From positions 581,259 through 645,258 of the forward strand of contig NZ_LT904904.1 of the NCBI RefSeq assembly GCF_900199725.1: 64,000 nucleotides of DNA, read 5' to 3'. Below, piece by piece: positions 15,720 to 30,093 of this stretch. Below the pieces are notes generated by a model. The model did not search any database and was not told the DNA's origin. It saw only the letters and a program-made list of their open reading frames with translations. This DNA comes from Cytobacillus massiliigabonensis. Its GTDB lineage: Bacteria > Bacillota > Bacilli > Bacillales > Cytobacillaceae. The translations under genes were made by a program, and so were the position numbers. Position 1 is the first letter of the stretch; each line of letters opens with the position of its first letter.

Positions 15720-16574
15720 TTATAGGCTCTCCTTTAGAAATCTAAGTACCTCTTTAAATGTCTCCGCAACTGCCGGATCTTTCATATTCTCATCAAATGA
15801 GTGCTTGCCATTTTCAATAGTAATTAGCTTATTCTTAATACCTGCACCGTTCAGTGCCTCACGCATGAATACGGACTGCTCATAAGGAACATCATCATCT
15901 GCATCTCCGTGCAAAAGAAGTGTTGGCGGGTAGTTTTTATCTATTTTTTTCAATGGACAAAATACATCGGGAGCCTCTTCCTTGTTGCCGGTTAAATAAT
16001 CGATCCACTTGCCTTGCTGACGGCAATATAAGTATATGGCGAAGCGGCGCTCGATTGGACCTTCGGATAGGGCCTCTTTTTGAATGAGCTGATGTACAAG
16101 AACCTCTGGAACAGCCGTCATTTTTGAAAAATATGGGCTGGGCTGTCGAGACCAATCCCCAGCAATATCCCCGTAGCCATAAAAAGAAACAATCGCATTC
16201 GGGCGAACTTGAAAGGTTCCAGACAATAGCGCAAGATAGCCGCCTGCAGAACTTCCAATTACAGCCATTCGATCAGGATCGAAGCCAAACGTACCTGCTC
16301 CTTGTTCCTTCAGCCAGATAAGAGCATCCTCAATGTCCTGCTTAATGGCTGTCAGCTCGGATTCTGGTGCTAGACGATAATCAATCGTGCATACGTTATA
16401 GCCTGCCTGCAAATAAAGATTTATTTGTTCCTCTTTCATATCCGTTCTTGTCCCAAAGATTAATCCTCCCCCGTGAATATAAACAATGAGTGGCGCATGC
16501 TTCTCCTCAATGGCATAAAAATCTCCTTTAATTTTACAGCCATCCACTTCCTTATATATAAATGTTGTCTTCAT
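15720..16574 (-). CDS. alpha/beta hydrolase, Aes/HSL-type esterase
   Basis: A 284-aa cytoplasmic carboxylesterase of the hormone-sensitive-lipase family. The oxyanion motif HGGG is in YIHGGGLIFG and the nucleophile is in VIGSSAGGYLA. The acid is likely the Asp in HGDADDDVP and the His is in GKHSFDE. The length is usual for the family. The ATG follows AAAGGAAGG. It is monocistronic, and the substrate cannot be assigned. Confidence 0.87.
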   Translation of the reverse strand: MKTTFIYKEVDGCKIKGDFYAIEEKHAPLIVYIHGGGLIFGTRTDMKEEQINLYLQAGYNVCTIDYRLAPESELTAIKQDIEDALIWLKEQGAGTFGFDPDRMAVIGSSAGGYLALLSGTFQVRPNAIVSFYGYGDIAGDWSRQPSPYFSKMTAVPEVLVHQLIQKEALSEGPIERRFAIYLYCRQQGKWIDYLTGNKEEAPDVFCPLKKIDKNYPPTLLLHGDADDDVPYEQSVFMREALNGAGIKNKLITIENGKHSFDENMKDPAVAETFKEVLRFLKESL

Positions 16575-16662
16575 TCCATATCCTTCCTTTCATTCGCTCG
16601 TTAACGATTTAAATTATAGTACACCGATGCTAGAAACAAATAAATCGAGTGAATCTTTAATG

Positions 16663-16720
16663 TTTTTGCAATGTAAACCCTTTCAATTTTATTCGATTGT
16701 TATGCCTGATTTCCTATAAT
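16663..16720 (+). promoter_or_regulatory. promoter of the fdrA operon with conserved upstream site
   Basis: The block TTTTTGCAATGTAAACCC followed by TTTCA lies six bases upstream of TTCGAT (-35, 16692) and TATAAT (-10, 16715), with a 17-base spacer. The same layout occurs at 25833-25890 before the MFS gene. TGTAAACCCTTTCA is one base from a cre consensus and could bind CcpA, or the site could serve the response regulator encoded in this cluster. A GC-rich repeat separates this promoter from fdrA. Confidence 0.65.
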
Positions 16721-16787
16721 GCAACTGAGGTTAAGTTATTGTTTATCTATTTACCTAAGGCTCATTCAAAAACAATGTTTGGCAGAG

Positions 16788-16957
16788 GTTGACTTCTGCT
16801 CCAGGATGCTCGCTTTTTCGCGGGGTGGGGGCTGAGCCTCTTCGGCTAGTGCCTGTGGGGTCTCAGCTGTCCCACTCCTCCCGCAGGACGTTGAATCCGC
16901 ACGAAGGAAATGCGACAGCATTTTCGAGGAGTCTCGCACCTCCCGCTCCAGTCATCC
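16788..16957 (-). repeat. GC-rich dispersed Bacillaceae repeat, copy 2
   Basis: The blocks CTCCAGGATGCTCGC, GCTGAGCCTC, GGGGTCTCAGCTGTCCCAC and GAGTCTCGCACC are the reverse complement of copy 1 at 5746. About 40 bases, from CGTTGAATCC to CATTTTCGAG, interrupt it relative to copy 1. It lies between the promoter and the fdrA start and so should be part of the 5' untranslated mRNA. Confidence 0.8.
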
Positions 16958-17050
16958 AAACCATTTCATTGCCTGCCACACAATTGGGAGCCTTTCTAAC
17001 GCATCCATATTTAGTCAAACGCATCAAAAATAATACCGAGGTGATAACAA

Positions 17051-18799
17051 GTGATTTATACGATTGTAAAAAAGAACTCGTATCAAGACTCTATTAATCT
17101 AATGTTATTAACAAATTCAATTTCTGCGATTGAAGGCGTCAACAAGGCGCAAATCATGATGGGTACCCCTGCGAATAAGGATATTTTTAAAACAGCAGGA
17201 TTGTATACGGAAGAATTGGAAACAGCGGAATCGAACGATATGGCGATTGTCGTTGATACAGATGATGAAAACAAAATGAACGAGGTTCTAGATAAAGTTG
17301 AGCAATACTTGAAGGATCAATCCATCAGCAATAAAGGAAATGATTATGAAACGGTCCGCACATGGGATCGAGCTAGAAAAGCGTTGCCTGATGCGACGTT
17401 AGCTCTAATTTCTGTTCCTGGCCAATACGCGGCTGAAGAGGCTGAAAAAGCATTGGACTTTGGTTTGCATACATTTATCTTCAGTGACAATATGCCAATT
17501 GAAGATGAAGTAAGACTTAAGAAAAAGGCGCATGAAAAAGGATTGCTCGTGATGGGACCAGATTGTGGAACTGGCATTATTGATGGTGTCCCAATTGCAT
17601 TTGCGAATGTTGTTAAAAAAGGACGAATTGGAATTGTTGGTGCTTCCGGAACCGGGATTCAAGAAGTAACAGCGATTATTGACCGCCTTGGTGAAGGAGT
17701 TAGTCATGCGATTGGCACAGGGGGCCGCGACTTAAAGGAACCTGTCGGCGCCATCACCATGATGGACGGCATCCGCGCATTAGAAAATCATCAGCAGACA
17801 GACATTATTGTTGTTATTTCTAAGCCGCCAGCAAAAGAAGTACGCAATGAAGTAGTCGATTTGCTTCATAGTGTTTCAAAACCAGTTGTAACCCTTTTCC
17901 TTGGTGAAAAGCCAACGCAATATGAAGGAAATGTATACCAGGCTTACACGTTAGAAGAAACAGCTCGCATGGCTGTTGACCTAGCGAAAGGAAATGAAAT
18001 GAAAGCTGATTACAATCAGGGGAATTTTGAAGTAGCTAATACAGATTTAAAACCAGAACAAAGAACAATTAAAGGACTTTTCTCTGGCGGAACTTTAGCT
18101 TCAGAAGCAGCTGTGCTCATTTCAGATGCACTGGGACTGGGCTCAGCCATTACGAATGAGGATGGCTATGTCCTGAAGAAGGATGGCCACATTGTCGTTG
18201 ACCTTGGTGATGACAAATACACACAAGGGAAGCCGCATCCAATGATTGATCCTGAAACGAGAGCTAGATTTATAGATGAAGCTGGCGCTGACGAACAAAC
18301 AGCGGTTATCCTTCTTGATTTTGTACTTGGCTATGGCTCGCATGATGATATGGCAAGTGCCCTCTTGCCATCGATTCAAAAAGCCGTTTCTCATGCTCAA
18401 AAAGAAGGCCGTACCTTGCATGTAGTTGCTTCTGTTTGTGGAACAGAAACGGATCCGCAAGATTACCAAGCACAAAAGAGAAAGCTTGCTGAAGCAGGAA
18501 TTATCGTAAAGGACAGCAATAATGAAGCGGTAAGAACAGCCCTAGCAATCGTAGGCCTAAAAGTAAATGACGTACAAAAAACTCATGTCGATGCAAAAGA
18601 ACCATCAAAAACATTCGACTTAGCCGTATCAAAAGAAATGGAAGCATTAGTGAACAATAAACCAAGTGTCATCAATGTAGGTCTAAAGAGCTTTACAGAT
18701 TCCATCATAGCGTATGGCGGCCGTGCCGTTCAATTTGATTGGAGACCGATTGCTGGCGGAAATGAAAAAATGAGAAAAATCTTGGCTCTATTGAAATAA
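17051..18799 (+). CDS. fdrA: FdrA-family acyl-CoA-synthetase-like protein (oxamate carbamoyltransferase subunit)
   Basis: A 582-aa protein homologous to FdrA (AllF), which resembles succinyl-CoA synthetase alpha. In E. coli it forms the AllFGH oxamate carbamoyltransferase that turns oxalurate and phosphate into oxamate and carbamoyl phosphate. Here the nucleotide/phosphate-binding segment GIVGASGTGIQEVTAI and GTGGRDLKEPVGAI lie near residues 195-240. A second CoA-ligase-like domain follows (LFSGGTLASEAAVL). It starts with GTG behind GAGGTG. It is the first gene of fdrA-allG-allH-arcC. A 240-bp repeat separates it from the next gene. The exact substrate here is inferred. Confidence 0.85.
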   Translation: MIYTIVKKNSYQDSINLMLLTNSISAIEGVNKAQIMMGTPANKDIFKTAGLYTEELETAESNDMAIVVDTDDENKMNEVLDKVEQYLKDQSISNKGNDYETVRTWDRARKALPDATLALISVPGQYAAEEAEKALDFGLHTFIFSDNMPIEDEVRLKKKAHEKGLLVMGPDCGTGIIDGVPIAFANVVKKGRIGIVGASGTGIQEVTAIIDRLGEGVSHAIGTGGRDLKEPVGAITMMDGIRALENHQQTDIIVVISKPPAKEVRNEVVDLLHSVSKPVVTLFLGEKPTQYEGNVYQAYTLEETARMAVDLAKGNEMKADYNQGNFEVANTDLKPEQRTIKGLFSGGTLASEAAVLISDALGLGSAITNEDGYVLKKDGHIVVDLGDDKYTQGKPHPMIDPETRARFIDEAGADEQTAVILLDFVLGYGSHDDMASALLPSIQKAVSHAQKEGRTLHVVASVCGTETDPQDYQAQKRKLAEAGIIVKDSNNEAVRTALAIVGLKVNDVQKTHVDAKEPSKTFDLAVSKEMEALVNNKPSVINVGLKSFTDSIIAYGGRAVQFDWRPIAGGNEKMRKILALLK

Positions 18800-18806
18800 A
18801 AGCTCT

Positions 18807-19045
18807 GTTATTATTCATTGTTGATTTTTGTGAGAATTCATAAGCGGAGAATTTCCGGCTATTTACAGAGATGAAGCTTAAAAAGCAAATATAAGCGGAA
18901 ATATTCCGATTAACAGCTCCAATTAAGGCAAAATCCAAAGATTTGGATACGATAACCGGAAAAACTCCCTTTATTTTTAAGGAAATATAGGTATTTCCCA
19001 ATTTAACCGGAATTTTTCCGTTTATTTCTCAAACACCGCAAAATC
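18807..19045 (+). repeat. about 240-bp dispersed repeat with GGAAA/TTCC motifs, copy A
   Basis: The sequence contains four short inverted motifs (GCGGAGAATTTCCG, GCGGAAATATTCCG, CCGGAAAAACTCC and CCGGAATTTTTCCG) at intervals of about 55-65 bases. It matches the reverse complement of 50494-50740 almost throughout. It fills the 307-bp gap inside the fdrA-allG operon. Confidence 0.8.
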
Positions 19046-19106
19046 AACATTCAGTTTTAACAGAGACAAAATAAAAAACCAATCCATTATTCGAGGAGGA
19101 TTTCAC

Positions 19107-20372
19107 ATGAAATACAATTCAATCGATGAAGCAAACAGAGCGGTAATCGAAAAAATCTCTGGGTCTGCGCCATTCCTTGTAGATGTCGTTCCCGCGAAGG
19201 ATAAAATCAAGGAATTAACGGAAGGGAAAGTCCTCCTGCATGCTGGACCGCCAATTAAATGGGACGATATGACAGGACCCATGCAGGGCTCTTGCATCGG
19301 TGCTGCCCTTTTTGAAGGCTGGGCTGCAACGGAGCAAGAAGCAAAACAAATGCTTGAAAATGGCGAAGTTACTTTTATTCCATGCCATCATGTAAATGCT
19401 GTTGGCCCAATGGGTGGAATTACTTCAGCAAATATGCCGGTATTTGTCGTAGAAAATCGTTCAGAAGGAAATGAAGCATACTGCATTATGAATGAAGGAA
19501 TTGGAAAAGTCCTTCGTTTCGGCGCTTACTCTGATGAAGTAATTACTCACTTAAAATGGCAGAAAAATGTATTAGGTCCAACACTTTCAAAAGCATTAAA
19601 GCTAACGGACAATGGCTTGAATTTAAATGTCATGATTGCCAAGGCGATCACAATGGGTGATGAGTTCCACCAGCGGAATATCGCAGCATCCCTTATCTTC
19701 CTTAAAGAAATCAGTCCATATATTGTGCAGGTAGAAGATATAAATGAAATAGATTTAAAGGATGTTATTCAGTTCCTGGCTGATACGGATCAATTCTTCT
19801 TAAATATTGCCATGGCAACAAGCAAGGCTGTCCTTGATGGGGCAAGAAAAATTGAAGAAGGTACAGTTGTTACAGCGATGTGCAGGAACGGGAAGGACTT
19901 TGGCATTCGCATTAGCGGCATGGGTGATGAGTGGTTTACTGCTCCAGTTAATACACCACAGGGACTATTTTTCACTGGCTATTCTCAAGACGATGCAAAC
20001 CCAGATATCGGGGACAGTGCGATTACCGAAACATTTGGTGTCGGCGGGATGGCGATGATCGCTGCTCCAGGTGTCACTCGTTTCGTTGGTGCTGGCGGTT
20101 TCAGTGATGCGCTTGCAACAAGCAACGATATGATGGAAATTTGTATTGACCAAAACAGCAATTTTACGATTCCAACTTGGGATTTCCAAGGTGCTTGTCT
20201 CGGAATTGATGCACGTAAAGTTGTTGAAACAGGAATTGAACCAGTCATCAACACAGGAATTGCTCATAAACAAGCGGGCGTCGGACAAGTTGGTGCAGGT
20301 ACGGTTCGTGCACCAAAGGAATGCTTTGAGAAAGCGCTTGAAGCATATGCGGTCAAACTGGGTCTCATCTAA
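19107..20372 (+). CDS. allG: DUF1116 protein (YlbE/AllG-like carbamoyltransferase subunit)
   Basis: A 421-aa DUF1116 protein, homologous to E. coli YlbE (AllG). Together with FdrA and the DUF2877 protein it is expected to form the carbamoyltransferase of oxalurate breakdown. Conserved Gly- and Asn-rich parts include PMQGSCIGAALFEGWA, GVGGMAMIAAPGVTRFVGAGG and ACLGIDARKVVETG. It is cytoplasmic. The ATG follows GAGGAGG at good spacing. It is the second gene of the operon, separated by a repeat from fdrA and followed 2 bases later by the DUF2877 frame. Confidence 0.87.
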   Translation: MKYNSIDEANRAVIEKISGSAPFLVDVVPAKDKIKELTEGKVLLHAGPPIKWDDMTGPMQGSCIGAALFEGWAATEQEAKQMLENGEVTFIPCHHVNAVGPMGGITSANMPVFVVENRSEGNEAYCIMNEGIGKVLRFGAYSDEVITHLKWQKNVLGPTLSKALKLTDNGLNLNVMIAKAITMGDEFHQRNIAASLIFLKEISPYIVQVEDINEIDLKDVIQFLADTDQFFLNIAMATSKAVLDGARKIEEGTVVTAMCRNGKDFGIRISGMGDEWFTAPVNTPQGLFFTGYSQDDANPDIGDSAITETFGVGGMAMIAAPGVTRFVGAGGFSDALATSNDMMEICIDQNSNFTIPTWDFQGACLGIDARKVVETGIEPVINTGIAHKQAGVGQVGAGTVRAPKECFEKALEAYAVKLGLI

Positions 20373-20374
20373 TT

Positions 20375-21295
20375 TTGCCCATGCAGAATTCCCTAACAAT
20401 ATTTGTGGAGGAATATGAACATTCGATTCCTCTCTTCCTTATAAAAAACCCGTTAGGATCTGTTCATAGTCTCTTCCAAAATGGGCTGAACATACTAATG
20501 GGGGAGCGCTTGTTTTTTATCGGTACTGATAAAAATGGGAAGCTTCCATTTGGGATTCACCTTCAAAAGGAAGCCGTTCAGAAACTGCTGTCTTCCATTC
20601 AAACGCCAGCTGCTGTCCAGTGGGATGAAGTCACGAAGCAGCTAACCTTTGAAACTGGCAATATAGCAGTAAATTTTAAAAAAGGCATACCCTACTCGAA
20701 CATTGTTCAGTATCCGAAGAATGAGATAACCGCTCAACACTTAGAAGCATTCATAAAAACGCTCGCTGCTGAAGGAGAAAGAACAGGATTAGATCTTGAG
20801 ATTAACCAATTTCTTCTTGAATACCTTCGTATACAAAAAGAACAATCTGCTCCTCCTGCAAATACGATCGAAGTTTACCGTTTATTGATGGCAATCTCTT
20901 CCCAAGACCAATCTGAAATAGACAGAGCTGTCCGCTATTTTTTAGGAAGAGGGCGAGGCTTAACCCCATCAGGGGATGATCATCTTGTTGGTTTACTAGC
21001 TATTCATACGATCACTGGCATATGCAGCCCTCTTTTTCTGCGAACGATTCAGGAAATTCTGCTGCATGAATCGATCACTACAGATATTGGAAGAGAATAC
21101 TTGCTTTACGCATTAAAAGGAGCGTTCAGCTCAACCATCGTAAATATTTTAAATTGTTTAACAGATAGGAAGAGAACGGAAGAAATAGAAAAGCAGCTAT
21201 CACAATTACTTACCGTTGGTCATAGCTCAGGAATAGATACAGCCTTCGGGCTATTAATTGGGCTATTAGCAGCGATAAACTGGAGGAAAGAATAG
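20375..21295 (+). CDS. allH: DUF2877 protein (YlbF/AllH-like carbamoyltransferase subunit)
   Basis: A 306-aa protein with the DUF2877 signature GRGLTPSGDDHLVGLLA near residue 205. It is the homologue of YlbF (AllH), the third component next to FdrA and AllG. The start is uncertain: TTG at 20375 lies 2 bases behind the allG stop, and an in-frame ATG follows at 20381. Neither has a strong ribosome binding site, which suggests translational coupling. The GGAGG at 20407 serves an out-of-frame ATG that leads to a stop after nine codons. The stop codon abuts the carbamate kinase ATG. Confidence 0.85.
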   Translation: MPMQNSLTIFVEEYEHSIPLFLIKNPLGSVHSLFQNGLNILMGERLFFIGTDKNGKLPFGIHLQKEAVQKLLSSIQTPAAVQWDEVTKQLTFETGNIAVNFKKGIPYSNIVQYPKNEITAQHLEAFIKTLAAEGERTGLDLEINQFLLEYLRIQKEQSAPPANTIEVYRLLMAISSQDQSEIDRAVRYFLGRGRGLTPSGDDHLVGLLAIHTITGICSPLFLRTIQEILLHESITTDIGREYLLYALKGAFSSTIVNILNCLTDRKRTEEIEKQLSQLLTVGHSSGIDTAFGLLIGLLAAINWRKE

Positions 21296-22234
21296 ATGGC
21301 AGAAAAAGTAGTCATTGCATTAGGCGGTAATGCCATTTTGCAGCCGAAGCAAGAAGCAACCTATGAAAATCAATTAGAAAATGTGCGGAAAAGCAGTGAA
21401 ATCATTGCCCGCATCGTCAAAAATGGCCATAATGTTATTATTACACACGGCAATGGTCCCCAAGTAGGCAATATTTTGCGCCAAAATGAGGAAGCGAAGG
21501 AAGTTGTCCCTCCATTCCCATTAGATGTTTGCAGTGCAGAATCACAAGGATTCATTGGCTATATGATGGATCAAACATTGAAAAACGAATTGCAAAAGCT
21601 CAGCTTAGATCATTCTGTTGTCAGCATGCTGACGCAAACAGAAGTATCAGCTGAAGATCCTGCTTTTCAAGATCCTTCAAAACCAATTGGCGTATTTTTC
21701 ACGGAAGAAGAAGCAAAGAAATTAGCTGAGGAAAAGAACTGGATTGTAAAAGAGGATGCAGGACGCGGATGGAGACGTGTTGTTCCTTCTCCAATGCCGA
21801 AATCGATTTTAGGCTCAGAGACAATTAAGCAATTAACTGATGGAAATACGATAGTTATTTCTGCTGGCGGAGGCGGAATTCCAGTCGTAAAGAACGAGGA
21901 TGGCTCGCTCACAGGGATTGAAGCAGTTATTGATAAAGACCGAAGTGCATTTAAGTTAGCTGAGGAAGTACAGGCAGATGCCTTCATGATATTAACAGAC
22001 GTACAAAATGTATATGTAAACTACGGCAAGCCGGATCAAAAGGCTTTAACACATATTTCATTAGAAGAAGCGAAGCAATATGTGAAAGAAGGGCAATTCT
22101 CGGCTGGAAGCATGGGACCGAAAATGGAGGCTGCCATTAAATTTGCTGAGCTTGGCGGAAGAGCCATCATTTGTTCACTAGACCAAGCAGATCTTGCAAT
22201 GGAAGGAAAAGCAGGAACGCAAATTACGAAATAA
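21296..22234 (+). CDS. arcC: carbamate kinase
   Basis: A 312-aa amino-acid-kinase-fold enzyme that transfers the phosphate of carbamoyl phosphate to ADP, giving ATP, CO2 and ammonia. The N-terminal motif VIALGGNAILQ, the segment THGNGPQVGN and the C-terminal AGSMGPKMEAAIKF are diagnostic. The length matches the family. Its ATG directly follows the allH stop and is preceded by GGAGGAAAG. It completes the energy-yielding step of the cluster, as AllK does in E. coli. No arginine deiminase genes are nearby, which favours a link to oxalurate or a similar compound. Confidence 0.94.
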   Translation: MAEKVVIALGGNAILQPKQEATYENQLENVRKSSEIIARIVKNGHNVIITHGNGPQVGNILRQNEEAKEVVPPFPLDVCSAESQGFIGYMMDQTLKNELQKLSLDHSVVSMLTQTEVSAEDPAFQDPSKPIGVFFTEEEAKKLAEEKNWIVKEDAGRGWRRVVPSPMPKSILGSETIKQLTDGNTIVISAGGGGIPVVKNEDGSLTGIEAVIDKDRSAFKLAEEVQADAFMILTDVQNVYVNYGKPDQKALTHISLEEAKQYVKEGQFSAGSMGPKMEAAIKFAELGGRAIICSLDQADLAMEGKAGTQITK

Positions 22235-22253
22235 TGAAAATTAATTATATAAT

Positions 22254-22299
22254 ATGGTATCCGTGCTAGTTTTTAAAGCTGGCACAGATACCATTTTTC
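22254..22299 (+). terminator. rho-independent terminator of the fdrA operon
   Basis: The outer stem ATGGTATC/GATACCAT with an inner GTGC/GCAC is followed by TTTTT. It separates the enzyme genes from the sensor kinase gene. Confidence 0.82.
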
Positions 22300-22326
22300 T
22301 CATTTGATATAGAAAGGAGGCCAATC

Positions 22327-24966
22327 ATGAGAAAGGCTCGCTCCTTAAAAAAAGAACTCATTTATTCCTTTTTAACCATCGCCTTTTTTTCAATTGCCAT
22401 CCTTGGGATTTTTCAAATCTATCAATTATCTTCTTTAATTAAAGAGAATCAAAGATATCAGGCACAGACGGCAAAATATCTCGCAGATTATATTGATAAT
22501 TATATTTTAGACTATAAAAAAGCCATTCAAACAGAAGCACTGAATGTGAAACAGCCTTTTTTAGATAATGATATCTCCGGGGTTCAAAAGCAATTGAAGG
22601 ACATAAAAACAAATTATCCCGGTTTCGTTAATATGTATGTAGGGGACAGCAAAGGGCAGTCCATCGTTTTTTATCCAGAATCCTATACCGACGGGGTTAA
22701 AAGGAAGAATCATAATTTCAGTGATCGCTATTATTATAAAGAATTATTAAAAACAAAGGACACAGTGATTTCCCCCGTTTACCATGGCAGAGGCGGGACA
22801 AATATGCTATTAGTTTCGATTGTTTCTCCTATTTTGGATGATGAAGGAGAAATGATTGGCTATGTCCTGGGGGCTTTAGATTTAAATGCTTTAGGCGAGC
22901 ATATAAAAAACCGCACCTTTGGGGATGGCGGATATGCTGTTGTTATTGATCAGCAGAAAAATGTCATCGTTCACCCTGAAGTCGATACAAGAAGAGAGTT
23001 AGTGAATCTTAGTCAGTCAGCTATCGTTCAATATATTAAGAAACAGCAGAATAAAAGCGGCAGCAGCTATTTTGAATTGGATAATTTGCATGAGGATGTA
23101 TTTGTTACCTATGAGAAAATAAGCAATCTTGATTGGGTTGTCTGGATAAGCAAGCCAACGGAAGCCATTACTTCAACCTATAAAAATGCCATTCTCTTAA
23201 TTACCATTTTCCTTCTTATTACAGCCATTATCATGGTCATTGTCAGTCTTTTCTTAACAGATCGCTTAGAACGGACAATGAGATATTTATTAAATTATAT
23301 AAAGGACTATACGAAAGGCATCAAGGAGGATACAACGGTAAAGAAGAAAATTCAAGGTCCGCAAGAAATGGAAGAGCTCTTCTATTATTTCAACCATATG
23401 ATTGATGAAGTGGAAAAAAATAGAACAGAATTAATTGAATTAAATAAAGTGCTTGAAGCGAGAGTCGAAGAGCGAACAACGACGTTGAAAAATAAAAACT
23501 TAGAGCTTAAAGCGGTAAACAAACTAATTACCTCTGTTTCTTCCAATAAGGATTTAGCTCATTTTATTCAGCATTGTTTAAAAGAAATAGAGCCCTTCAT
23601 GGATTATTCCATCCATGTGTTCTTTCACGATTTAGCTGTAACAACGAATACAATCCATACGAATCAAAATCTATTGCAGTATCTTAGCAAAAATATAGTT
23701 GGCGAACAGCAGTATATCGAGCCGATTCAGATTGAAAAAAATAATAGAGGCTTTTTAATTGTTGACCTTATGAACAAGCAAGCAATCACAACGAGCCAGC
23801 AGGAATTCCTCCGTACCTTTGCCGGCTCATTAGCGGTCATGCTGCAAAATAAATTCCTATTTGAACAAATCCGCAATAAGCATGCCGTGTTAGCTGCCGT
23901 ATTGGAAAGTATGTCTGAAGGATTAATGCTTGTAAATAACCAAAAAGAGGTTGAATATGTGAACGAGTTCTTTCTTTCTGCCGTTAAAATTGGAAAAGAG
24001 AAAGAATTGGTTAGCTTTAATGATGTTTATAAACAATTTATCAACATCTTTGCTGTTGACCGTGAAGAGCTGTCTGCCTTCTTTGCTAATAAAAAGAAAG
24101 AATTAAAATTAGAATACAAGGCTAGGCAAAAGAAGCCTAAATATTATATTCTTCATAAATTTTCGGTCATGCTTGATGAGGATGAAATTGGCGAAGGCTT
24201 ATTATTGCGCGATATCACGAAGGAAGAAGAAATTGATACATTAAAAAATAATTTAATTTCTCTTACTTCTCATGAGTTTAAAACACCGATTACCAATATT
24301 AAGGGCAGTGTAGAAACATTGCTCCGTCCTGAGGTTGAATGGGAACCAGAATTTCAGCAGGAGCTGTTAGAGGGTGTACATGAAGATATTGAAAGGATTC
24401 TCCATTTAGTAAATGACTGGATGGACATCTCGAAGATTGAATCAGGAACGATGTATGTCGAACGTCAGATGGTTCGTACAAGCTATCTCATAGAAAAATC
24501 AATGGAGCAAATCCCCCTTGCATTGCGTGAAGATGCAAGCTTCCATTTTCATAATAAGCTTGGAGAAGATTTCACCTTTTATGCCGATAAAATTCGCGTT
24601 CAGCAAGTGCTCGTCAATTTAATGACCAATGCCCTTCGTTATAATGATGCGAGCTTGAAGAAGATTGATATAACACTAGATCGGACGGATGATTTTATCA
24701 CAATAGCCGTTTCCGACAATGGGATAGGCATTTCAGAAGATCATATAACGAAAATCTTCAATCATTTTTATCAGGTCGATGTTACAGCCACAAGGCGGAC
24801 AGGAGGGACAGGCCTTGGGCTTGCGATTTGTGTTGGAATTATGGAGGCGCATGAAGGAAAAATTGAAGCCATTAGTGAGCCGGGAAAAGGAAGTACATTT
24901 ATCTTAAATTTTCCCAATAAAAGCGGGAGGGACATAGATGAAAAATCAAAAGATTTGTATCGTTGA
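22327..24966 (+). CDS. sensor histidine kinase with Cache and PAS domains
   Basis: An 879-aa membrane kinase. A first membrane segment (about 11-31) precedes an extracellular dCache-type sensor (about 35-275, with SIVSPILDDEGEMIGYVLG). A second segment (about 288-310) is followed by a helical linker and coiled coil (about 330-400), a GAF-like region (400-520), a PAS domain (about 530-635), HisKA with His649 in LTSHEFKTP, and HATPase_c (N, G1 and G2 boxes in DNGIGI and GGTGLGL). The ATG follows AGAAAGGAGG. Its 3' end overlaps the response regulator gene. The extracellular domain probably senses a small organic acid or the substrate of the cluster. Confidence 0.92.
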   Translation: MRKARSLKKELIYSFLTIAFFSIAILGIFQIYQLSSLIKENQRYQAQTAKYLADYIDNYILDYKKAIQTEALNVKQPFLDNDISGVQKQLKDIKTNYPGFVNMYVGDSKGQSIVFYPESYTDGVKRKNHNFSDRYYYKELLKTKDTVISPVYHGRGGTNMLLVSIVSPILDDEGEMIGYVLGALDLNALGEHIKNRTFGDGGYAVVIDQQKNVIVHPEVDTRRELVNLSQSAIVQYIKKQQNKSGSSYFELDNLHEDVFVTYEKISNLDWVVWISKPTEAITSTYKNAILLITIFLLITAIIMVIVSLFLTDRLERTMRYLLNYIKDYTKGIKEDTTVKKKIQGPQEMEELFYYFNHMIDEVEKNRTELIELNKVLEARVEERTTTLKNKNLELKAVNKLITSVSSNKDLAHFIQHCLKEIEPFMDYSIHVFFHDLAVTTNTIHTNQNLLQYLSKNIVGEQQYIEPIQIEKNNRGFLIVDLMNKQAITTSQQEFLRTFAGSLAVMLQNKFLFEQIRNKHAVLAAVLESMSEGLMLVNNQKEVEYVNEFFLSAVKIGKEKELVSFNDVYKQFINIFAVDREELSAFFANKKKELKLEYKARQKKPKYYILHKFSVMLDEDEIGEGLLLRDITKEEEIDTLKNNLISLTSHEFKTPITNIKGSVETLLRPEVEWEPEFQQELLEGVHEDIERILHLVNDWMDISKIESGTMYVERQMVRTSYLIEKSMEQIPLALREDASFHFHNKLGEDFTFYADKIRVQQVLVNLMTNALRYNDASLKKIDITLDRTDDFITIAVSDNGIGISEDHITKIFNHFYQVDVTATRRTGGTGLGLAICVGIMEAHEGKIEAISEPGKGSTFILNFPNKSGRDIDEKSKDLYR

Positions 24967-25648
24967 TGATGAACCGAAAATTCTGCGATTTATTTCCGCA
25001 AACTTAAAATCTATCGGGTACGAAGTATCGACTGTTAGCTCAGGAGAAGAATTATTTGAGAAATTCGATCTAATTTCCCCTGATTTAATTCTGCTGGATA
25101 TTATGATGCCAGGACAGGATGGCTTTTATGTGTTAGAAAAGCTGCGCAAGTTCTCAAATGTACCTGTTATCATGCTTACTGCTAGAAGCAATGCCAAGGA
25201 TAAGGTGCAGGGATTAAATGTTGGAGCAGACGATTATTTAACAAAGCCGTTTTCATTAGATGAACTATTTGCACGAGTGAATGCCGTTTTAAGAAGGACC
25301 CAGTCCAGTGCAGATCCGCAAACTGCGGCAACACCAGTTATCCGGACAGGCGTATTAACAATTGATCTTGGAAGTAAACGCTGCTGGATCAACGATGAGG
25401 AGTTTAAGCTAACACAAACCGAATATTCGGTAATGGAAATTTTAGCCCTCAATCTTGATAAAGTGGTTCAGCATGAAATATTGCTTTCAGAGGTTTGGGG
25501 ACCGCAATATCGAGATGACATCGAATATTTGCGTGTGGGGATTGCGCGAATCCGCAGAAAAATAAAGGAGCATTTGCACAATAAAGAGGAATATATTGTC
25601 ACCTATCCAGGCCTTGGCTATATGCTGAAGAGCGTTCCGCACGAATAG
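24938..25648 (+). CDS. OmpR/PhoB-family response regulator
   Basis: A 236-aa regulator. The receiver domain (4-118) has acidic residues in IVDDEPK, the phosphoacceptor Asp54 in LLDIMMPG and Lys in YLTKPFS. The winged-helix domain (about 135-232) has EYSVMEILAL and YLRVGIARIRRKI. It overlaps the kinase gene by 29 bases, with GGGAGGGAC as ribosome binding site inside the kinase frame. A likely target is the conserved block upstream of fdrA and the MFS gene. Confidence 0.94.
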   Translation: MKNQKICIVDDEPKILRFISANLKSIGYEVSTVSSGEELFEKFDLISPDLILLDIMMPGQDGFYVLEKLRKFSNVPVIMLTARSNAKDKVQGLNVGADDYLTKPFSLDELFARVNAVLRRTQSSADPQTAATPVIRTGVLTIDLGSKRCWINDEEFKLTQTEYSVMEILALNLDKVVQHEILLSEVWGPQYRDDIEYLRVGIARIRRKIKEHLHNKEEYIVTYPGLGYMLKSVPHE

Positions 25649-25656
25649 AAATTATT

Positions 25657-25709
25657 AAAGCTGACTTATTATGTTCGTTTTTTAACGGCATTTTGAGTCA
25701 GCTTTTTTG
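25657..25709 (+). terminator. rho-independent terminator
   Basis: The stem AAGCTGACT/AGTCAGCTT encloses an inner CGTT/AACG hairpin and is followed by a T-run. It ends the two-component system genes. Confidence 0.75.
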
Positions 25710-25832
25710 TGTGAAAAAATAAATGGCCGGTCTGATTAATTGAATAATCCTTTATGTATGGAGTAAAACCCGTGCAGTTGAAATTAGGCAGACTGACATT
25801 CTTTATAAATGACTTTTACCTGCATTTTAATC

Positions 25833-25890
25833 TTTTTGCAATGTAAACCCTTTCATTTTTATTCGACTGTAATGCTTTTTATCCTATAGT
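25833..25890 (+). promoter_or_regulatory. promoter of the MFS gene with conserved upstream site
   Basis: The block TTTTTGCAATGTAAACCC followed by TTTCA is identical to that at 16663. TTCGAC (25862) and TATAGT (25885) follow with a 17-base spacer. This indicates common control with fdrA. The start codon is 71 bases beyond the -10 box. Confidence 0.68.
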
Positions 25891-25961
25891 TTGGGTGAGG
25901 CTGAAATATTAATTTTTACTTAAGATCCATACAAATAAATCTAAATTGGGAGGAAAACAAA

Positions 25962-27218
25962 ATGGCAAAAGTTTTAAATCAAGATGAGCCAGTACCTGTA
26001 TCTAAGGGTGAAATACCGTATTGGGTTAAAATCACGATTGTCTTCTTTTTAGGCTGGGTTGCTCTTTATGCTACACGGGCAATTCTTAACCCGGTAATGG
26101 ACAATATTCAAGCAGAGTTTAGTTTATCTGCGGCACAATTAGGTTTAATCAGCAGTATCTTTTTCATTGGATATGCCGGACTAAACGTTCCATCAGGAAT
26201 ACTAGGAGATAAGATTGGAAAGAAAAAAGTCCTTGTTCCTGGAGTTATTCTGTTCGGGATCATGGCAGCGGTAACAGGCATGATGCCTTCATTTACACTT
26301 TTCATGATCGCCTGGCTGTTGGTTGGGATCTTTCAAGGGTTCTATTATGGCCCACAGTACGGGTTATCATCTGAAGCGATTCCCAAAAAGCATATTACTG
26401 TAGGAAGTGCAATTATTAACAGCGGAATGGCATTTGGTTTATCAGCTGGTTACTTCATTTCCAGTTACACAGTCGGTACACTTGGAATGAGCTGGAGAGC
26501 TCCATTCTATGTCATTGCAATACCTGTCGTGCTTATCGGCTTGGCTATGTGGTGGGTTATTAAAGACAAGCCAAAAACAGCTGCAGGAGATTCAGCTGGA
26601 GAAGCGAAACCAAAGCTCAAAATGAAAGAGCTATTTAGCAGAAACTTAGTTTTTGCATACATTACGATTTTCTGTGCGATCTATGCATTCTTCGTAGTAG
26701 TTACTTGGATTCCATATTATTTGCAGCATGCAAGAGGAATTGATGGAACAGAGGTTGCTGTTGTTTCTTCATTAGTTCCATGGGCAGCCATTCCAGGGTC
26801 CATTCTCTTTAGCTGGATTGCGGATAGAATGGGAAAACGCCGTCCAGTATTGCTAGTGATGCTTCCACTTTCTATTATTGCAATTGTATCTATCGTTGCA
26901 TTTGATAGTATGTGGGTTCTATATGCTGCTTTAATCGGCTACGGGATATTTGGTAAAATTAGCACGAACCCCGTGCTTGTCGCAGTCGTAGCTGATAACG
27001 CGCCAAAACATGCATTAAGTACAGCATTTGGCTTCTACAACTTTATCGGAATGTGCGGATCCATATTGGCTCCATATATTACTGGATTCCTTACAGATGT
27101 CACAGGCACATTGAATGCTGGATTCTATTTCGCAGGCATTCTTCTAGTCATCGGTACAATATCAGTGTTATTCATCAAAGAGAATAACCGTCCGAACGTG
27201 GAAGGTGCAGCAAATTAA
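25962..27218 (+). CDS. MFS transporter of the anion/organic acid type
   Basis: A 418-aa permease with twelve predicted membrane segments. The MFS signature lies between segments 2 and 3 (GILGDKIGKKKVLVPG) and recurs between segments 8 and 9 (WIADRMGKRRPVLL). A cytoplasmic loop rich in K, G and A (about 200-220) divides the halves. The ATG follows GGGAGGAAA. Because it shares a promoter block with fdrA, it probably imports the substrate of that pathway. The substrate itself cannot be read from sequence. Confidence 0.88.
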   Translation: MAKVLNQDEPVPVSKGEIPYWVKITIVFFLGWVALYATRAILNPVMDNIQAEFSLSAAQLGLISSIFFIGYAGLNVPSGILGDKIGKKKVLVPGVILFGIMAAVTGMMPSFTLFMIAWLLVGIFQGFYYGPQYGLSSEAIPKKHITVGSAIINSGMAFGLSAGYFISSYTVGTLGMSWRAPFYVIAIPVVLIGLAMWWVIKDKPKTAAGDSAGEAKPKLKMKELFSRNLVFAYITIFCAIYAFFVVVTWIPYYLQHARGIDGTEVAVVSSLVPWAAIPGSILFSWIADRMGKRRPVLLVMLPLSIIAIVSIVAFDSMWVLYAALIGYGIFGKISTNPVLVAVVADNAPKHALSTAFGFYNFIGMCGSILAPYITGFLTDVTGTLNAGFYFAGILLVIGTISVLFIKENNRPNVEGAAN

Positions 27219-27221
27219 AAA

Positions 27222-27258
27222 AAGATCCCGAATCTTATATAGCAGATTCGGGATCTAT
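27222..27258. terminator. bidirectional terminator between convergent genes
   Basis: A 13-bp stem AGATCCCGAATCT/AGATTCGGGATCT with an 8-base loop lies between the MFS gene (plus) and the GGDEF gene (minus). Confidence 0.82.
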
Positions 27259-27271
27259 CATTCTTACAAAT

Positions 27272-28621
27272 TTATTCTCTTGCTTTAATTGAATACATCT
27301 CTCTATCAGCCTGCTGCAGCAAACGATCTAGATTAGCCTGAGAAGCTTTCACGATAGATGACCTGCCAATACTTGCTGAAACACTGATAGAAATGCCTTT
27401 TACTTCAAATGAACAACTCAGCGCCTCCTGAATTCGATGGATGGCTGAATTTGTCATAGCATCATCCACGTTTGATAATAGGATAACAAATTCATCTCCG
27501 CCCATCCGGCATAATAAATCTGTTTCAGCAATCTCCTCTTGAATTCTAGCAGAAACCTTTTGAAGCAGAAGATCACCTGCCTCATGGCCATACGTATCAT
27601 TTACTTGCTTAAAGGCGTTCATATCAATAAATAGAATCGCTAATGTACTTTCCATCTTCTGCAGGCTTTCAAAATTTTGCTTAAGCTTATAACGATTAGC
27701 TGCCCCTGTTAATGAATCATAATAAGCTAGCTTCTTAATATGCTCCTCCATCTGTTTTTGTTTCGTTATATCAATCAAGATTCCCTCTACCCTTGACGCG
27801 GATTCCTCTTCATTAGAGAAAGAAACACCTCGGCATTGCAGCCATGTAATGTCTCCTTTACTGTTTACAACTCGATATTCAGCCGTTTGAGCTTCCCCTT
27901 TTTTAATGGCAAAAAATGCATTTCTTAGAATGCTGCTATCTTCGGAATGTATGCAGTTATCGATCATCCATTTGCCGCTAATCTCCAGTGTATCTGGCAG
28001 TTCCGGCAAGTTAGGTATTTTATTTGATAGGGATAATCTATCAGTGGATGGATCATATGACCATGTAATAATATCGGTTTGTTGAAGGACATGGTTCAGC
28101 TTATTGCTAGATTCTTCTGACTGCTTCCATAAAAGATGGGTTACTTTTATAAATAGGAATAAGAATCCCATCAGAAATAATCCAAAAATGAGAAAGAAAA
28201 CAAAATCTCCGCTAGCCACATTCGGAAAAATCTCATTTCGAAAAGAAAAGAATGCATAAAACGTAAGAAGCAGGGAGCCTGTCCCTGCAAGCAATACTGC
28301 GCGATAATTTTGGTAAACAGCACTTAAAGGAAGACCCAGCCACATAAATAAATAGTTTATTAAATAAGGAGAATCCGTCAGCAGAAAAAAGAAATAAAGA
28401 TATGTAAATATGATTACTGTATACATAGTTAAAACGGGGTTGATCTTTTTAATAATAAACAGCAGCAGGATAGTTGCTGCAATCATAAATATGATTACCG
28501 GAGGAAAAACACTAGCAACGCCCTCAATTAATACATTAATGGACACTTGAATGAAATAAAATACAACAATCAAACTAAAAAGAATCGCATTTCGGCGATG
28601 TAATATTTCTTTATATATCAT
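27272..28621 (-). CDS. membrane PAS-GGDEF protein (diguanylate cyclase)
   Basis: A 449-aa protein likely to make cyclic di-GMP. About six membrane segments lie in residues 10-165, a PAS domain with PAC at about 180-285 (WSYDPSTDRL and EYRVVNSKGDITWLQCR), and a GGDEF domain at 295-447 with the intact active motif MGGDEF and KLAYYDSLTGAANR. The usual RxxD inhibitory site reads AETD, so product inhibition through that site is not expected. It stands alone on the minus strand. Confidence 0.92.
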   Translation of the reverse strand: MIYKEILHRRNAILFSLIVVFYFIQVSINVLIEGVASVFPPVIIFMIAATILLLFIIKKINPVLTMYTVIIFTYLYFFFLLTDSPYLINYLFMWLGLPLSAVYQNYRAVLLAGTGSLLLTFYAFFSFRNEIFPNVASGDFVFFLIFGLFLMGFLFLFIKVTHLLWKQSEESSNKLNHVLQQTDIITWSYDPSTDRLSLSNKIPNLPELPDTLEISGKWMIDNCIHSEDSSILRNAFFAIKKGEAQTAEYRVVNSKGDITWLQCRGVSFSNEEESASRVEGILIDITKQKQMEEHIKKLAYYDSLTGAANRYKLKQNFESLQKMESTLAILFIDMNAFKQVNDTYGHEAGDLLLQKVSARIQEEIAETDLLCRMGGDEFVILLSNVDDAMTNSAIHRIQEALSCSFEVKGISISVSASIGRSSIVKASQANLDRLLQQADREMYSIKARE

Positions 28622-28848
28622 ATGAAGTCAATCCTATTCATAATATGGGAGTTTCCTTATCTAGTAGTATATTCCTATTTTAACATGTTGTAGGACACCA
28701 AGGTATTATTTTAGACACAGGGACATGTATACAGTCTCTTTTTTTATTTGCCGGGAGCAAATTAAAGACATATTAAAGACATGTCAATTAAACACCTTCT
28801 GTTTTATGATTATATAGAAGATTCAGATAATAAAAGGAGGCGAGTTTA

Positions 28849-30093
28849 ATGAAGTTGGAGAATGAAGGGACAGAACCTGGTGTACATGTAAATGGAGGGA
28901 AGAAGAATATTTTAAAGTATCTTGGTCCTGCATTTATTACTTCTGCCTTAGTTTTAGGTCCAGGAAGTGTGACGCTGTCATCAAAAATTGGGGCGATATA
29001 CGGCACCGATCTTGTATGGGCAATTTTCGCTGCGATTATCTTTATGATGTGCTACACAGAGATGAGCACACGAATTGGTCTTGCTGCCAATCAAAGCTTC
29101 ATTCATGTCATGCTGAATAAATGGGGGAAACTGGTATCTGTTCTAATAGGTGTAGGAGCCTTTTTAGTAACAGCCTCTTTCCAAGCAGGTAATTCGATTG
29201 GTACAGGAATTGCGATGAAAGCATTGACAGGTGTTCATTCAACTGTATGGATCGTTCTCATGTCCATCCTTGCCATTGCCCTATTATTTGCTAAACAGTT
29301 TTATGCGATTTTAGAAAAGCTTATGCTTGGGCTTGTTTTAGTTATGCTGGGTGCTTTTTTAATCACCTTTATCGCAGTCAAACCATCCTTTTCGGATATT
29401 TTCAGCGGATTTATACCAGCCATTCCTTCAGGAAGCATTGGGTTAGTTATTGCCCTTTTTGCAACAAGTTTCTCTATCGTAGGTGCTGTCTATCAATCTT
29501 ATTTAGTTCAAGAAAAAGGCTGGACGATTAAAGATGCGAAAAGCAGTACACGAGAGTCCTATTTAGGGATTTTCATTTTAGGATTCATTTCATTCTTAAT
29601 TATGGTCGTTGCTTCAGCTGTATTAAAGCCACAAGGATTAGTGGTAAACGACGCCTCAGAAATGGGTGCATCCCTTGAACCTTTATTTGGTTCATGGGCA
29701 ACCGTTGTATTTATGATTGGGCTGTTGGGCGCATCCTATTCATCACTAATAGGGAATGCGACAATTGGCGGATCGATGTTAGCGGATGGATTGGGCTTTG
29801 GCAGCAAACTCTCAAATATGAAAGTGAAAATTGCCATTGTTGGCGTAATCCTATTTGGTTCAATCGTTGCCATTATTTTTGGGTCTGCACCAGTAAACCT
29901 TATCGTTTTCGCCCAAGCCGTTACCATTTTTATTGTTCCCTTTATCGCCATTTGTATTTTAGTTGTAGCAAATGATGAAAAAATTATGGGAGCTTTAAAA
30001 AATAGACTAACTAGTAATCTATTTGGAATTCTAGGGTTGCTAGTTTTACTTTACCTAGCATTTAATAACTTCAAAAATATCTTTCTTTCTTAA
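28849..30093 (+). CDS. Nramp-superfamily transporter lacking the metal-binding motifs
   Basis: A 414-aa protein with eleven predicted membrane segments of the Nramp/LeuT fold. In helix 1 the usual DPGN reads GPGS (ALVLGPGSVTLSS), and in helix 6 the usual MPHNLY region reads SIVGAVYQSY. The Asp, Asn, Met and His ligands for Mn or Fe are thus absent, so canonical metal transport is doubtful. The ATG follows AAAAGGAGGCGAG. It is followed by an epimerase and DUF993 gene at short spacing, which suggests uptake of an organic substrate. This is inference. Confidence 0.8.
   Translation: MKLENEGTEPGVHVNGGKKNILKYLGPAFITSALVLGPGSVTLSSKIGAIYGTDLVWAIFAAIIFMMCYTEMSTRIGLAANQSFIHVMLNKWGKLVSVLIGVGAFLVTASFQAGNSIGTGIAMKALTGVHSTVWIVLMSILAIALLFAKQFYAILEKLMLGLVLVMLGAFLITFIAVKPSFSDIFSGFIPAIPSGSIGLVIALFATSFSIVGAVYQSYLVQEKGWTIKDAKSSTRESYLGIFILGFISFLIMVVASAVLKPQGLVVNDASEMGASLEPLFGSWATVVFMIGLLGASYSSLIGNATIGGSMLADGLGFGSKLSNMKVKIAIVGVILFGSIVAIIFGSAPVNLIVFAQAVTIFIVPFIAICILVVANDEKIMGALKNRLTSNLFGILGLLVLLYLAFNNFKNIFLS

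Follow-up and report, generated by a model that had tools for sequence, protein, structure and literature searches.

A recurrent allFGH-carbamate kinase unit of Bacillota with a predicted substrate-sensing two-component system, a tandem operator and a permease

Which compound is used by an allFGH-carbamate kinase gene set that stands apart from the genes of the allantoin pathway, and what switches the set on? The question is raised by a stretch of 64,000 nt from Cytobacillus massiliigabonensis (G000:C8:581259-645258, termed “the window” below), which belongs to a genome of 5.23 Mb rated 100% complete. Seven co-directional genes on the plus strand occupy positions 17051–27218 of the window and encode the enzymes together with a histidine kinase, a response regulator and a permease of the major facilitator superfamily (MFS). 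Our analysis suggests that they form a self-contained, substrate-induced unit for the use of a purine-derived ureide from outside the cell, with oxalurate as the most likely compound; we consider this reading fairly probable. If it is true, oxalurate itself is a compound that bacteria detect and import, apart from the classical allantoin route. The genes are:

17051–18799, plus strand: allF (fdrA), GTG start with GAGGTGA upstream; NF004760, PDB 3dmy match
19107–20372, plus strand: allG (DUF1116); PF06545, PDB 3clq match
20375–21295, plus strand: allH (DUF2877); PF11392, predicted structure
21296–22234, plus strand: carbamate kinase (allK-like); TIGR00746
22327–24966, plus strand: membrane histidine kinase with dCache sensor; Pfam, predicted fold
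24938–25648, plus strand: OmpR/PhoB-type response regulator; Pfam
25962–27218, plus strand: MFS permease; Pfam, NCBIfam

Ten proteins encoded at 15720–30093 were searched against Pfam and NCBIfam, and the remaining open reading frames (ORFs) of the window were judged by eye. AllF scored 741.8 bits with NF004760 (cut-off 433) and the carbamate kinase 433.5 bits with the arcC equivalog TIGR00746 (cut-off 358.25), while AllG matched PF06545 (E = 4e-96) and AllH matched PF11392 (E = 2e-26). All three subunits AllF, AllG and AllH are encoded, with NF004760, PF06545 and PF11392 each above the cut-off, and the Pfam entries for AllG and AllH carry the names of oxamate carbamoyltransferase subunits. 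The regulator contains the Pfam domains Response_reg and Trans_reg_C. The window enzymes are most likely an oxamate carbamoyltransferase (AllFGH) and a carbamate kinase. A preliminary description, made from the letters alone, had proposed the same gene order and the same type of enzymes, and the ORFs and profile matches agree with both. It had also stated that allantoinase and ureidoglycolate genes are missing; indeed none was seen in the window, by profile for the ten proteins and by eye for the others.

The single AllG, the single AllH and the single carbamate kinase above the cut-off in the window's genome all lie within the unit. Neither AllD nor AllE has a match at E ≤ 0.001 in the whole genome, and the best match to the allantoinase model stays under its cut-off (350.2 vs 357.85 bits). 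As AllD and AllE are without a match, an outside source of the substrate is indicated. The substrate is likely to be imported, as had been suggested before, and oxalurate is the best candidate.

The comparison of neighbourhoods in relatives, which the preliminary description had proposed, covered 60 neighbourhoods from family genomes and the best 80 of 494 relatives (named loci). AllG occurs in 46 of the 193 family genomes, with up to four copies each. Four types of loci were found. One has a Cache kinase like that of the window, one comprises allantoin operons that include allC, allE and allD, a third, with few members, has a soluble kinase, and the last is termed class B and is distant from the others. 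The term “soluble kinase” was chosen because a PAS domain was not detected in the one member searched. The window type comprises 27 unique loci, in records named Bacillus, Neobacillus, Peribacillus, Paenibacillus, Virgibacillus, Ornithinibacillus, Lentibacillus and Sporosarcina (eight genera), and across these 27 loci kinase, regulator and permease accompany AllFGH-type enzymes.

The allF upstream regions of the Cache-kinase loci have a conserved tandem element of ~49 bp in common, which the preliminary description does not mention. In its consensus form, two half-sites TTTWAT-N5-TGYAATG, either of them an 11-bp direct repeat, are spaced by 31 bp, and a -10-like hexamer follows ~10 bp further on. 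We refer to this element as the operator. It is present twice in the window, and operator 1 has one mismatch to the consensus summary, in the last half-site:

16656–16704, plus strand: operator 1, before allF, half-sites TTTAAT-N5-TGCAATG and TTTTAT-N5-TGTTATG, 31 bp apart
16715–16720, plus strand: TATAAT, -10-like element for allF, read by eye
25826–25874, plus strand: operator 2, before the MFS gene, from the motif scan and the whole-genome pattern search
25885–25890, plus strand: TATAGT, -10-like element of the MFS gene, with TCGACT at 25863, from the promoter consensus scan

A half-site score was applied to 128 unique loci. The operator was present in all 27 Cache-kinase loci (in 26 before allF, in 26 before the permease gene), a finding that is partly due to construction, as the score had been derived from these loci. 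A variant precedes allF in five of the seven soluble-kinase loci, and one of the 94 loci without either kinase has the operator; the Markov controls gave 0 of 128. Because the score was built from scanned loci, a pattern search of whole genomes is the stronger test. The pattern occurs in ten of the 193 family genomes, i.e. the eight that have the unit and two others, G051 and G155, and the reversed pattern gave zero in every row listed. The window's genome has exactly two matches. Upstream of the permease gene, three Neobacillus-type loci (L031, L054, L056) have their half-sites 32 bp apart. All 27 unique loci of the window type combine a Cache kinase with the regulator, a carbamate kinase, AllG and the operator, and because these five components recur jointly the unit is not a chance arrangement. 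By co-occurrence, the regulator may bind the tandem operator, and the shared operator lends support to the earlier idea that the sensor is linked to the enzymes.

Two family genomes contain natural variants of the unit. At the place in G051 that matches the unit of G061, the order is operator-kinase-regulator-operator-permease, and the allF-allG-allH-carbamate kinase stretch is missing. This stretch corresponds to ~5.1 kb of L051, beginning directly behind the operator and ending with the carbamate kinase gene; the neighbouring gene across the operator is also missing. Loss in G051 appears to be the simpler reading. G051 has a further operator between pucR and allC of its own allantoin operon (L215/L070), which indicates that the switch can serve an allantoin operon and that its signal is tied to that pathway. 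In G155 the order is operator-permease-kinase-regulator, with no allFG alongside and with an allantoin operon elsewhere (L064).

To place the enzymes, a quick tree of AllF and AllG was calculated (105 rows). A single starred clade, nested among the allantoin-operon sequences, unites 25 of the 26 Cache-kinase rows, and class B forms a separate clade. The 26th row, Peribacillus simplex L125, stands apart, so that the Cache-kinase label needs two changes on the tree (0 of 500 shuffles were as low). E. coli is on a long branch, and its exact place is unsure. A Paenibacillus sequence adjoins that of the window, which suggests transfer between genera. A provisional class “A2” was abandoned, as it is not one clade (five changes for six rows). 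Of 293 columns that are invariant in 54 allantoin-operon rows and E. coli, 289 are kept in the window, 272 by all 26 Cache-kinase rows and 193 by all 12 class B rows. By both tree and invariant columns, AllFG of the window groups with the allantoin-operon and E. coli enzymes and not with the distant class B.

These results bear on the possibility that the enzymes act on a carbamoyl compound other than oxalurate, the unit having been recruited for another nitrogen source. Such a recruitment would fit the lack of pathway genes beside the unit in the window and the existence of separate AllFG paralogues within one genome, e.g. G061. It would also fit class B, in which AllFG-type enzymes stand in quite different gene settings. 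Class B AllG is 46–52% identical to that of the window, and many class B loci (L039–L050 and others, with AllH-AllF-AllG) contain a PucR-type regulator, a guanine-deaminase-like gene and an ankyrin/TPR protein; these clusters probably act on another carbamoyl substrate. For the window, the nested tree position, the 289 retained residues, the operator at the allantoin operon of G051 and an AllH that is apparently common to several types all speak against a different substrate, which we regard as quite improbable. Tree nesting, invariant residues, the adjacency of AllD in Sporosarcina (see below) and the G051 arrangement are the reasons why oxalurate chemistry is favoured, and the earlier alternative “oxalurate or something else” has thus become less open.

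The same switch and enzymes could also serve an earlier intermediate, i.e. ureidoglycolate or allantoate would be imported and sensed and then converted to oxalurate inside the cell. Eleven of the 27 unique Cache-kinase loci, all of them from Sporosarcina, have an AllD gene no more than 9 kb away, and both of the two that were tested pass the AllD equivalog cut-off. An AllC-like M20 hydrolase gene also adjoins the unit in Sporosarcina; in the two loci tested, the protein is above the cut-off of the NF006771 subfamily. An assignment as AllC was not adopted, as the scores of 290.5 and 286.1 are far below the AllC equivalog cut-off of 597.75. Together with the operator before allC in G051 and the AllD genes of related genomes (see below), these arrangements are compatible with import of an earlier intermediate. 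In the window's genome, where AllD and AllE are without a match, the conversion would have to proceed via an unrecognised dehydrogenase. We consider this possibility unlikely, and direct use of external oxalurate remains the reading that we prefer.

The sensor kinase has a dCache_1 domain (Pfam, 93.3 bits, cut-off 45) between two membrane segments, followed by HisKA and HATPase_c. It had been labelled a Cache/PAS kinase, of which the Cache part is confirmed; a PAS domain has no Pfam match at E ≤ 0.001. The structural model (pLDDT 84.7) matches dCache domains from amino-acid receptors and the pyruvate-bound domain of KinD. The fold search gave 180 matches at E ≤ 0.001, and an attempt to call the ligand from them was given up because their ligands are too varied. 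An alignment of 16 sensors shows D133, R134, Y136, Y137, R155 and further residues to be invariant; we assume that an Arg-aromatic motif of this kind binds a carboxylate. Hydrophobic segments flank the sensor in four of four Cache kinases examined and are absent from five of five soluble kinases examined. It is possible that the Cache kinase senses the outside for the stand-alone unit and the soluble kinase the inside for the version embedded in the pathway. The permease matches the general Pfam family MFS_1.

Oxamate resembles pyruvate, and the sensor might answer oxamate or a similar small keto-acid-like anion, with the permease mainly exporting oxamate or swapping it for the substrate. KinD with pyruvate is among the fold matches, and permease and allF stand under the same operator. 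The sensor-permease sets of G051 and G155, which lie away from allFG, fit uptake at least equally well, and we judge this reading of sensor and permease to be very improbable.

In the preferred reading, i.e. a unit induced by external oxalurate, the dCache domain would sense the compound outside the cell; its fold is supported, and the ligand is a proposal. The kinase would activate the OmpR/PhoB-type regulator, which would bind the tandem operators just upstream of the -10-like elements of allF and the permease gene. The MFS permease would import the compound, perhaps in exchange for oxamate. AllFGH would convert oxalurate and phosphate to oxamate and carbamoyl phosphate, from which the carbamate kinase would produce ATP, CO2 and ammonia; both reactions are established for the E. 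coli proteins. We infer that oxalurate would be ligand as well as substrate, that it would be imported, and that it would have a role in energy or nitrogen supply; the fermentation proposed in the preliminary description would be one possible role and nitrogen supply another. A more far-reaching version can be proposed tentatively, with somewhat less than even chances. It holds that the dCache pair and its operator constitute a hitherto undescribed extracellular oxalurate sensor that is mobile as a module among Bacillota genera and can be attached to any source of AllFG in the genome, be it the unit's own or, as in G051, an allantoin operon, that a sister with a soluble kinase serves some allantoin operons, and that AllH is shared in trans by several AllFG pairs. 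The unit is compact and apparently movable and has a defined operator, and its two short promoters make ligand, binding and transport testable.

Besides the origin of the half-site score, several observations weigh against the preferred reading. In G046 and G058 the operator also precedes a triple-RidA protein that has no known link to oxalurate. This protein has 423 residues with three RidA-type stretches (L213:7732-9003, L214:5973-7244); full-length homologues are present in nine of ten genomes tested and absent from the window's genome. L125 lacks an allF-linked operator and has only a weak site, 658 bp before the permease gene, and by the half-site score two of the seven soluble-kinase loci, L032 and L052, show no operator. 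The regional promoter scan gave 28 matches vs a shuffle mean of 35.6, and it lists a promoter for the permease gene and no full promoter at allF. The solved sensors nearest to that of the window have amino acids or pyruvate as ligands, and the sequence similarity to them is weak. The permease remains below the cut-off of its best specific model, the D-galactonate-type TIGR00893 (149.4 vs 395 bits). The adjacency of AllD is limited to one genus, Sporosarcina, and may reflect a single event. Lastly, AllD is encoded somewhere in seven of the eight family genomes that carry the unit, and there an earlier intermediate could be imported.

AllH shows a distribution of its own. With the window's protein as tblastn query, it was undetected in 30 of 141 fetched loci (duplicates included), and with a wider query set 28 of these 30 were still without an AllH-like ORF. 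The gap between allG and the carbamate kinase gene is ≤213 bp in 23 of the 30 loci, too short for allH. L054 and its duplicate L094 retain only a short allH leftover between these genes, and AllH is encoded elsewhere in the genome of L054. Four of the 27 unique Cache-kinase loci lack AllH (L031, L056, L057, L095). An AllH gene was found somewhere in 15 of 15 genomes tested, and G020 has four AllG and one AllH. One AllH may be able to serve several AllFG pairs, and this apparent sharing raises the question of how the three-subunit enzyme is assembled. The AllH model (pLDDT 89) had no match in the PDB at E ≤ 0.001 (best 0.2). A fusion of AllF and AllG with ~1000 residues was noticed in L033, L059, L106 and L130. 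Clusters C6 (e.g. L089:10986-12530) and C24 (L058:5603-6961) adjoin class B and soluble-kinase loci; they have no Pfam match at E ≤ 0.001, appear by eye to be membrane proteins and are possibly unnamed permeases.

The remaining features in and around the unit are:

15720–16574, minus strand: alpha/beta hydrolase (BD-FAE / Abhydrolase_3), divergent from allF; Pfam
16740–17000, plus strand: dispersed repeat in the allF leader, between operator and allF; 20 matches in its own genome including itself
25657–25705, plus strand: hairpin followed by a T run, likely terminator between the regulator and permease genes; fold z -6.82, missed by the simple terminator scan

The hydrolase cluster occurs in 32 of the 61 first-round loci, and 18 of the 27 unique Cache-kinase loci have the same or a related cluster no more than 9 kb away; members are also found near allantoin-operon and class B loci. 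The hydrolase probably belongs to the unit as a partner, and one guess is a ureide or amide hydrolase. The limits given in the preliminary description need revision, since its start, 16663, falls inside operator 1, and the hydrolase gene beyond it is probably to be included. The terminator scan also found a terminator-like hairpin on both strands directly after the permease gene (27223–27256). The two hairpins indicate two likely transcription units, i.e. allF-G-H-K-kinase-regulator and the permease gene. The gap between allF and allG is long (307 bp) and contains a 24-nt repeat four times (18841–19027). The allF leader was rejected as an RNA switch, since its fold z is merely -1.85 and it consists mostly of the dispersed repeat. 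An element of this kind, inverted, occupies the corresponding position in the relative G046 (L062:6336-6546). An Rfam scan of the window gave zero families at gathering thresholds, and the window has no tRNA or tmRNA. Two adjoining minus-strand ORFs at 252–1675 resemble, by eye, an IS3-type transposase pair. Far from the window, the genome has a cluster (L182/L183, G000:C8:2786001-2824500) with two bacterial microcompartment (BMC) shell proteins, an EutN/CcmL protein, two adenine-deaminase-type amidohydrolases, UbiD, isochorismatase and cyclase proteins and, by eye, xanthine-dehydrogenase genes. It may be a purine- or pyrimidine-degrading microcompartment; a brief literature search on this type found nothing.

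How does the unit compare with known systems? The AllFGH enzyme was assigned to its genes in 2024, when Kim and Kim showed the oxamate carbamoyltransferase activity of the E. coli proteins (PMC11326118). E. coli allFGHK (fdrA-ylbE-ylbF-ybcF) has the same four genes in the same order as the window, with identities of 62% for AllG, 40% for AllF and 44% for the carbamate kinase. Unlike in the window, allE, allC and allD adjoin the E. coli operon, and no kinase, regulator or MFS gene is directly alongside. The nearest relatives in the tree are the Bacillota allantoin operons (allC-allE-allD-allD-allF-allG-carbamate kinase), with AllG 74–84% identical among the rows listed. Some of them have a soluble kinase, a related regulator and the variant operator; in contrast to the window, the pathway genes are present and, as this type was defined, no Cache kinase lies within 9 kb. 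A stand-alone set, as found here, has precedents, since according to passages of PMC12625717 comammox Nitrospira and ammonia-oxidising archaea possess allFGHK in the absence of known upstream purine genes. There the genes differ from those of the window in lying near biuret/triuret genes, and these passages mention a gntR-type regulator and codB and no two-component system.

The sole regulation study among the papers found is on E. coli, where AllS and ArcA are reported to control the allF operon (PMC12535856). As ArcA is a two-component regulator, the earlier claim that no such sensor had been described for these enzymes needs to be narrowed. It stands for a dedicated system: titles and abstract openings, in a search with most subscription literature outside its range, yielded no publication on a two-component system or a permease dedicated to allFGHK. 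The dCache fold of B. subtilis KinD (PDB 4jgo; 4jgp with pyruvate) is the same as that of the window's sensor, with weak sequence similarity (E = 0.005). Compared with these systems, the enzymes of the window are of a known kind, and the novelty is probably the control unit, i.e. a dedicated, probably substrate-sensing kinase-regulator pair with its operator and permease.

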